From: Oceanimonas pelagia
GTDB taxonomy: Bacteria; Pseudomonadota; Gammaproteobacteria; Enterobacterales; Aeromonadaceae
Length of the DNA: 64,000 nt
Direction: 5' to 3'
Assembly (NCBI RefSeq): GCF_030849025.1
Contig: NZ_CP118224.1
Span: 1,162,001-1,226,000 of the forward strand
In this document: in pieces, positions 46,939-49,379 of the stretch
Layout of the letters: the number at the start of each line of letters is the position of its first letter
Position numbering within the stretch: position 1 is the stretch's first letter
The notes under the pieces: generated by a model
What the model was told of the DNA's origin: nothing
Seen by the model: the letters and a program-made list of their open reading frames with translations, nothing else
The model's database searches: none
Position numbers and translations under genes: made by a program

Positions 46939-47478
46939 ATGCATTTGACCATCCGCTTTGCCACTGTCCGCCCGGCGGCCTGGCCCGGCATACTGGCCCT
47001 GCTGTTGCTGCTGACCGGCTGGTCCGCCCGGGCCGCCGGTGAACTGCCCACACCCGAAGGGCGGGTGATTCTCACCGTGACCGGCAATGTCAAACACACC
47101 AACAGTGCCCACGGCGCCCGTTTCGACATGGCCATGCTGGAGCAGCTGCCCCAGCAGGAATTTGTTACCGACACGCCCTGGACCGACGGCCAGCACCACT
47201 TTCGTGGCGTTGAGCTGCGGGCCCTGTTGCAGCGCCTTGGCGCCGAGGGCAAGCGGCTCCGGCTGGTGGCCCTGAACGACTATCATCACGATATCGACAT
47301 GGCCCTGGTCAACAACATGCCCTTTGTACTGGCGACCCATATGGATGGCAAAACCATGAAAATTCGCGACAAGGGGCCGGTATGGCTGATGTTGCCGCTG
47401 TCCGGCAACGCCCAGTACAACACCAAGCGTTTTCATGAAATGCTGGTGTGGCAGCTGAAAACCCTGGAAATCCAGTGA
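46939..47478 (+). CDS. Secreted molybdopterin-oxidoreductase-fold protein lacking cysteine
   Basis: A 179-residue protein with a signal peptide (about residues 1-33, ending ARA) and a domain resembling the oxidoreductase molybdopterin-binding fold: VTGNVKHTNSAHG, FRGVELRALLQRLGA, RLVALNDYHHDIDMALV, THMDGKTMKIRDKGPVWLM. There is no cysteine anywhere, so the cysteine that ligates molybdenum in sulfite-oxidase-type enzymes is missing. It is more likely a ligand-binding or sensory protein than a redox enzyme. AAGGA precedes the ATG at 46939. It overlaps the following GGDEF-EAL gene by four bases. Confidence 0.75.
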   Translation: MHLTIRFATVRPAAWPGILALLLLLTGWSARAAGELPTPEGRVILTVTGNVKHTNSAHGARFDMAMLEQLPQQEFVTDTPWTDGQHHFRGVELRALLQRLGAEGKRLRLVALNDYHHDIDMALVNNMPFVLATHMDGKTMKIRDKGPVWLMLPLSGNAQYNTKRFHEMLVWQLKTLEIQ

Positions 47479-49379
47479 CCGTGAAAACCGTCAAGCTGGT
47501 GCTGCTTACCATTGCCGCCCTGCTGTTCAGTGCCAGCTCGCTGTACAGCTATAACCGCGATCTGGATGTGGTGACCTATGTGTCGGCCACCATCAAGGCG
47601 GTGGGCTGGGCCAGCTCCGAGCTGGAAATGGAAGTGCTCAAGTTTGACCACGCGCTGACCTCACTGGCGGCCGGCATTCGGGATGAAGACCATGCCCAGC
47701 TGCGGTTTGAATTGCTGTGGAGCCGTATCGACACCCTGCTGGAAGGTGAAGAAACCCGGCCCATGCGCGAACAACCCGGGGTCAAGCCGCTGCTGCTGGA
47801 GTTTCGCCAGCGCCTGCAGGAGTGGGAAGAGGCCGTTTACCGGCTGAACGCCGGCGACCGTCAGGGCATACTGGCGCTGAAGCAGGAACTGGCGCCGTAC
47901 CTGCAGCGGGCCCGGGAGCTGAACGTGGACAGCTTTTCCGGCAGCAGCGTCTGGCAGCAGCTCGACATCATCGGCGACATTCGCCTGCGCTCCACCATGT
48001 ATCTGGGAGGCCTGCTGATCAGCGGCGGCCTGATGCTGTGGCTGCTGCTCAGGGAAAACCGCCGTAACCGTTACCTTGCCTACCACGACATGCTCACCGG
48101 TCTGCCCAACCGCATGAACTTCTATCAGATGATGGAACAGTCCCTGAACCGGGCCCAGCGCGACCAGCACAACCTGGCGGTGCACATGGTGGATCTCAAC
48201 GGCTTCAAGGCCATCAACGACAGCCTGGGCCACGACGTGGGTGACCGGGTGCTCAAGGTGGTGGCTTCCCGGCTGAGCGTGGCGCTGGCCGGGCGTGGCC
48301 ACGTGGCCCGGCTGGGGGGCGACGAGTTTGTGGTGATCCAGCCTTTTGACCGGCGTGAAAAGGTCGAGCGGCTGAGCGAGCAGTTGCTGCGCAGCCTGGC
48401 GGGGGAGATCCGTCTGCCCGACGGTTGCCTGTCGCCCCAGGCCAGCATTGGCACCAGCTGCTATCCCGAGCATGGCACCACCATGGCCGAGCTGCTCAGC
48501 CATGCCGACACCGCCATGTATTACGCCAAGCACGATCCCAAGTTTGCCTCCCGGCTGTTTGAGCCGGGCATGGACGAACGCCGGTTGCGCAGCCAGAAAC
48601 TGGCGGTGGCGTTGCAGCTGGCCATTGAAAATGACGAGCTGAACCTGGTTTATCAGCCCATTTTCCGCCTGGACGGCGGCCATATCGAATCCCTTGAGGC
48701 CCTGCTGCGCTGGCATTCCGCCGAGCATGGCCATATCAGCCCGCTCGAGATCATTGCCGTGGCCGAGCATCATGGTCTGGCCCACCAGCTTAATCAGTGG
48801 GTGTTGTTGAGCGCCTGTCGTCAGCTGAAACACTGGCACCAGCAGGGCCACGGCTGGCTCAAGGTGAATGTCAACATCAGCCCGGAAATCTTCATGAGCG
48901 GCGAGCTGGGCAGCACGGTGAAAACGGTGTTGCAGCGCACCGGCCTGCCCGCCAGCGCCCTGGTGCTGGAGATCACCGAAGACACCAGCCTGTGGGATAC
49001 CGCCGGCTCCATCGACAACCTGGCCAGGCTGCGCCAGCTGGGGGTGGAAATTGCGCTCGATGACTTTGGCACCGGCTATTCCTCGTTCAGTCACCTGCGT
49101 CAGCTGCCGGTGAACAAGCTCAAGATCGACAAGTCCTTTGTGTCGGATCTGACCACGGACTCCCGCGCCGCCGATCTGGTGCATACCATTATTCGCCTGG
49201 CGGAGAGCCTCGACATGGAGGTGACCGCCGAGGGTATTGAGCTGCCCGAGCAGCAGCAGCACCTGCAGCGGCTGGGCTGCCAGCTGGGCCAGGGCTACCT
49301 GCTGGCCCGGCCATTGCCCGCCAGCCAGGTGGCCGACTGGCTGCAGCAGGATCTGCAGCGCTACACGCCCGCCGGCTAG
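47475..49379 (+). CDS. Membrane GGDEF-EAL cyclic di-GMP enzyme with periplasmic sensor
   Basis: About 634 residues. TM1 (about 6-25), a periplasmic helical region of about 150 residues, TM2 (about 176-196), GGDEF (about 210-365, RLGGDEFVV intact, HMVDLNGFKAINDSLGHDVGD) and EAL (about 380-630). The EAL domain keeps ESLEALLRW, VNVNISPE, LEITEDT, ALDDFGTGYSS, LKIDKSFV, TAEGIE and LGQGYLLARPL, so both domains look competent; there is no I-site RxxD. The start is GTG at 47475, overlapping the TGA of the MoCo-fold gene; GTG at 47481 is possible. Coupling suggests the secreted partner controls this enzyme through its periplasmic domain. Confidence 0.88.
   Translation: MTVKTVKLVLLTIAALLFSASSLYSYNRDLDVVTYVSATIKAVGWASSELEMEVLKFDHALTSLAAGIRDEDHAQLRFELLWSRIDTLLEGEETRPMREQPGVKPLLLEFRQRLQEWEEAVYRLNAGDRQGILALKQELAPYLQRARELNVDSFSGSSVWQQLDIIGDIRLRSTMYLGGLLISGGLMLWLLLRENRRNRYLAYHDMLTGLPNRMNFYQMMEQSLNRAQRDQHNLAVHMVDLNGFKAINDSLGHDVGDRVLKVVASRLSVALAGRGHVARLGGDEFVVIQPFDRREKVERLSEQLLRSLAGEIRLPDGCLSPQASIGTSCYPEHGTTMAELLSHADTAMYYAKHDPKFASRLFEPGMDERRLRSQKLAVALQLAIENDELNLVYQPIFRLDGGHIESLEALLRWHSAEHGHISPLEIIAVAEHHGLAHQLNQWVLLSACRQLKHWHQQGHGWLKVNVNISPEIFMSGELGSTVKTVLQRTGLPASALVLEITEDTSLWDTAGSIDNLARLRQLGVEIALDDFGTGYSSFSHLRQLPVNKLKIDKSFVSDLTTDSRAADLVHTIIRLAESLDMEVTAEGIELPEQQQHLQRLGCQLGQGYLLARPLPASQVADWLQQDLQRYTPAG

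Follow-up and report, generated by a model that had tools for sequence, protein, structure and literature searches.

The window, a 64,000-nucleotide stretch (positions 1,162,001 to 1,226,000 of contig NZ_CP118224.1) of the 3.59 Mb single-contig genome of Oceanimonas pelagia, whose nearest named relatives are Oceanimonas species, carries two codirectional genes that we refer to as pruR-type and dcpA-type (Table 1). As stated in the first-pass annotation, the stop codon of the first gene overlaps the start of the second, with the TGA at 47476-47478 lying across the GTG at 47475.

Table 1. Features of the pruR-type/dcpA-type locus (positions in the window)
Feature	Position	Strand	Description
pruR-type gene	46939..47478	+	179-aa predicted SUOX-fold pterin-binding protein; ATG start, TGA 47476-47478
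Putative Sec signal peptide	46939..47037	+	Assigned by eye: residues 1 to ~33, a hydrophobic run leading to ...SARA-AG
dcpA-type gene	47475..49379	+	634-aa membrane GGDEF-EAL protein; GTG start, alternative GTG 47481
Periplasmic helical domain	47550..48002	+	Approximately residues 26-176, flanked on both sides by hydrophobic stretches of TM length
WX7E signature	47607-47633	+	W45...E53 of the dcpA-type protein
GGDEF domain	48078..48536	+	Residues 202-354, active-site GGDEF intact
EAL domain	48609..49313	+	Residues 379-613; EALLRW, NVNIS, DDFGTGY, KID, AEGIE intact

The first product had been described as cysteine-free, and a count over all 179 residues indeed gives zero cysteines. Its N-terminus is hydrophobic by eye and forms a helix at residues 12-31 in the AlphaFold model, in which confidence is low at residues 1-12 and 27-32. 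The match to PF00174 (Oxidored_molyb) barely exceeds the Pfam cut-off (24.4 versus 24 bits), and the molybdenum-ligating cysteine of the sulfite oxidase family is absent from the protein. The alignment column of the lost ligand could not be located, alignments of the PruR sequences with the two true PF00174 enzymes of the genome (L001, L002) being unreliable, and the argument from the lack of a ligand therefore rests on the total absence of cysteines. Among the 41 sequences compared, the mature region is cysteine-free in 34, a check that the first-pass annotation had proposed, so that the absent cysteine is a trait of the family and not a peculiarity of the O. pelagia protein.

In phmmer searches against solved structures, the first product matched the Klebsiella pneumoniae PruR 7RKB (E 2.8e-28) and the Agrobacterium tumefaciens PruR 7KOS (E 7.3e-28), both deposited as "Pterin Binding Protein", as well as 7KOM and 7KP2 from Vibrio vulnificus and V. 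cholerae, with E-values over the four PruR proteins from 3e-28 to 6e-22. By sequence, the similarity to a solved relative is thus far beyond chance at the best of these E-values, with identities to the four proteins of only ~31-35%. The AlphaFold model, built from seven sequences and with a mean pLDDT of 77.8, was matched by Foldseek to the same four PruRs with E-values from 1e-13 to 4e-9 (best 1.1e-13). VIA alignments to the four structures span 131-147 residues and give Z-scores of 20.6 for K. pneumoniae (7rkb), 20.4 for Agrobacterium (7kou_A), 15.7 for V. vulnificus and 14.2 for V. cholerae, all above the highest value of 12.9 for catalytic sulfite oxidases and SoxC-type enzymes. In fold (SUOX-type), in size (about 170 residues in PruRs) and in its nearest structures the 179-residue product has the properties of a PruR. 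Matches to RNA polymerase beta in the NCBIfam and PDB searches (E 0.02-0.8) were taken as chance.

The structural alignment places residues 33..179 of the model on residues 22..168 of the 7kou chain with a constant offset of 11, by which N113, Y115 and W171 correspond to Asn102, Tyr104 and Trp160 of A. tumefaciens PruR. These are the positions, with Tyr104 alternatively a Phe, that have been discussed for pterin binding (PMC13259868). The tryptophan at W171 does not vary over the 41 sequences, 38 of them share the asparagine at N113, and the position of Y115 is occupied by Tyr or Phe throughout.

The dcpA-type protein lies directly downstream of the pruR-type gene and combines a WX7E domain between two predicted transmembrane helices with GGDEF and EAL motifs, as is characteristic of DcpA. 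Residues 1-205 are modelled as nearly all helix with a stretch of transmembrane length at each end and approximately 150 residues between them; motifs and model together bear out the earlier description of a membrane GGDEF-EAL enzyme with intact sites and a domain of about this length. The signature reads W45-ASSELEM-E53 and is that of DcpA-type periplasmic domains (PMC13259868); its glutamate is invariant in seven partner sequences, including the histidine-kinase partners of Burkholderiales relatives. Pfam scores are 143 bits for GGDEF and 235 bits for EAL, and the motifs GGDEF, EALLRW, NVNIS, LDDFGTGY, KIDKSF and AEGIE are all intact. The partner gene is under purifying selection (dN 0.06-0.17, dS 0.45-1.57). 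For the periplasmic domain, Foldseek gave no match under E 0.001, with weak rows to NarQ sensors. A blastn search against plasmids gave partial matches only, of which those listed fall in GGDEF-EAL genes.

Of 119 genomes surveyed in the order, 28 contain a PruR gene, and wherever the neighbourhood could be read (the survey left out L041, which lies at a contig end) a codirectional open frame, mostly with WX7E, follows directly 3' of pruR. In the two close Oceanimonas relatives (L004, L005) a GTG overlapping the pruR stop codon is again a possible start of the partner frame, and the order of pruR followed by its partner is also found in Burkholderiales. The outputs of the partners comprise GGDEF-EAL proteins, histidine kinases (L035, L040, L046 and, in Burkholderiales, L006, L007, L009) and GGDEF-only proteins. 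The published list holds more than 5500 sequences, and pairs of this kind occur widely among Proteobacteria (PMC13259868). The conjecture that the pair may recur in other marine gammaproteobacteria was therefore right with respect to recurrence and too narrow with respect to its range.

Two variants of the partner were also noted. Histidine kinases of the PruR-DTB type are encoded 3' of the PruR genes of L006, L007 and L009 (Burkholderiales), and in these the tryptophan of WX7E is replaced and the glutamate is kept. In L037, L043, L044, L045 and L056, a PruR-like gene is followed by a gene for a GGDEF-only membrane protein of ~360-390 residues whose periplasmic stretch is similar. A review (PMC13259868) names two common configurations, and this kind of partner belongs to neither; in L038 and L042 the partners are comparably short but their GGDEF motif is not intact.

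With respect to the supply of pterin, the genome encodes a protein (L010/L049; G000:C1:1541591-1542313) that scores 324.8 bits on NF006598, "pteridine reductase" (cut-off 288), and that carries TGAARRIG and YSMAK, in accordance with the motifs TGX3RXG and YX3K given for pteridine reductases (PMC13259868). This gene is unlinked to the pruR-dcpA pair and is a candidate for the PruA/FolM equivalent. A search of the genome with the NCBIfam model for dihydromonapterin reductase, NF005066, gave no match over the cut-off; a biopterin-dependent hydroxylase is also encoded, and a single gene of the FolB/FolX family was found, which makes a route to monapterin in this genome conjectural. Because the pteridine reductase scores above a curated cut-off, a tetrahydropterin is a plausible ligand for PruR of this organism.

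In A. tumefaciens, PruR in the periplasm is bound by a reduced pterin that is made via PruA; it then makes contact with DcpA on the periplasmic side and tips this enzyme towards phosphodiesterase activity, thereby lowering c-di-GMP and attachment (PMC13259868). The locus in O. pelagia resembles this system (PruR, Atu3496; PDB 7KOS, 7KOU) in the order of pruR and dcpA, in a cysteine-lacking SUOX-fold protein (here putatively periplasmic) with the N102/Y104/W160 pocket residues, in a WX7E periplasmic domain joined to GGDEF and EAL, and in a pteridine reductase encoded in the genome. It differs in that the two PruRs share 35% identity and in that the periplasmic domain of the partner has ~150 residues here versus ~190 there. 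The PruRs of K. pneumoniae (7RKB), V. vulnificus (7KOM) and V. cholerae (7KP2), of which 7RKB and 7KP2 are neopterin-bound structures, have the same fold and size and 31-34% identity in the structural alignments; V. cholerae has PruR-DcpA pairs but lacks a pteridine reductase (PMC13259868), whereas the source genome has one. PruR-DTB systems, as in the Burkholderiales relatives, use the same PruR and a related periplasmic domain with a histidine kinase as output instead of the GGDEF-EAL protein found here. With the sulfite oxidase family, including YedY (PF00174), the first product has the fold core in common; unlike this product, these enzymes are much larger and have a molybdenum-ligating cysteine, and the role here would be signalling instead of catalysis.

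Combining these data, we suggest that the gene pair is very probably a PruR-DcpA system in which a presumably exported PruR free of molybdenum cofactor would have a shortened pocket of the sulfite-oxidase type and hold in it a small pterin in reduced form, probably a tetrahydropterin (tetrahydromonapterin, for example). With its ligand bound, PruR would then dock on the helical periplasmic domain of DcpA in the WX7E region and shift the balance between the cytoplasmic cyclase and phosphodiesterase activities, probably towards the breakdown of c-di-GMP, which would restrain attachment and biofilm formation. What this model says of the ligand, of docking and of the direction in which the enzyme is shifted follows the A. 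tumefaciens system by analogy. The observations made directly are the sequence and fold of the first product, its pocket residues, the signature of the partner, the pairing and its recurrence, purifying selection and the pteridine reductase gene. The first-pass annotation had proposed a ligand-binding subunit that controls c-di-GMP turnover, a reading that is very probably right in matching the established PruR-DcpA system and that is not novel. It also stated that it knew of no characterised system with these components, which does not hold, as the class of ligand, the contact in the periplasm, crystal structures and the phenotype have all been published for A. tumefaciens (PMC13259868 and papers cited there). 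The find is thus real but not new, the pair being already known as a kind of system; it places a characterised pterin-to-c-di-GMP module in a marine gammaproteobacterium of the Oceanimonas type that has a pteridine reductase, and it implies that a gene next to one for a GGDEF-EAL protein should be taken for pruR when it is annotated as "molybdopterin oxidoreductase".

The PF00174 match just over the cut-off and the fold shared with SUOX enzymes (VIA Z about 9-13) could be taken to mean that the first gene encodes a small molybdenum- or tungsten-dependent oxidoreductase that adjoins a c-di-GMP enzyme by accident. We consider this highly improbable and rejected it, as a protein with zero cysteines has no molybdenum ligand of the kind used by this family, its closest structures are PruRs, which bind plain pterins, and the gene pairing is conserved across families and classes. 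Less remote, although still unlikely, is a PruR-DcpA homologue with a diverged ligand or output, for example one that responds to another pterin or in which pterin-bound PruR favours the cyclase. The identity of 35% to A. tumefaciens PruR would leave room for such divergence, both catalytic sites are intact so that either direction is possible, and PruRs fall into separate groups with unsettled ligands (PMC13259868). Weighing also against the main reading, the Vibrio PruRs form groups of their own and the pterin that acts in vivo is a matter of debate even for A. tumefaciens (PMC13259868), the identity to solved PruRs is low, and the phosphodiesterase bias is known only for A. tumefaciens. The N, Y and W residues of the pocket are, however, unchanged, and the genome shares with A. 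tumefaciens the possession of a pteridine reductase, both of which argue against a diverged ligand or output.

A second gene of the PruR type lies elsewhere in the same genome, on the minus strand at G000:C1:2638134-2638595 (in L048, G000:C1:2633000-2642000), and is followed by a partner frame of 658 residues. This partner keeps WX7E and has lost most catalytic motifs, both active sites included: GGDEF is replaced by GRESL and EALLRW by RLSLQW. Three other genomes of the genus (L053, L054, L055) have the same degenerate partner without internal stop codons, and its dN/dS over the four genomes is about 0.13-0.22; the open frames and this sign of purifying selection show that the degenerate partner is maintained. 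As judged from its motifs, the second pair, a predicted catalytically dead c-di-GMP output joined to a pterin receptor, is more unusual than the main pair, and it possibly functions as a pterin-controlled non-enzymatic c-di-GMP receptor or has an output by protein contact. We regard it as doubtful that the PruR-DcpA system of this lineage answers another or an externally supplied pterin, or runs cyclase-biased; were this the case, it would share its pterin input with the dead second pair, and one class of pterin ligand would feed both an enzyme and a non-enzymatic receptor. In one relative (L055; G085, contig C10:74454-74957) the match to the second pair's PruR is interrupted by one in-frame TGA, possibly reflecting a match that overruns the start of the gene or, alternatively, early decay.
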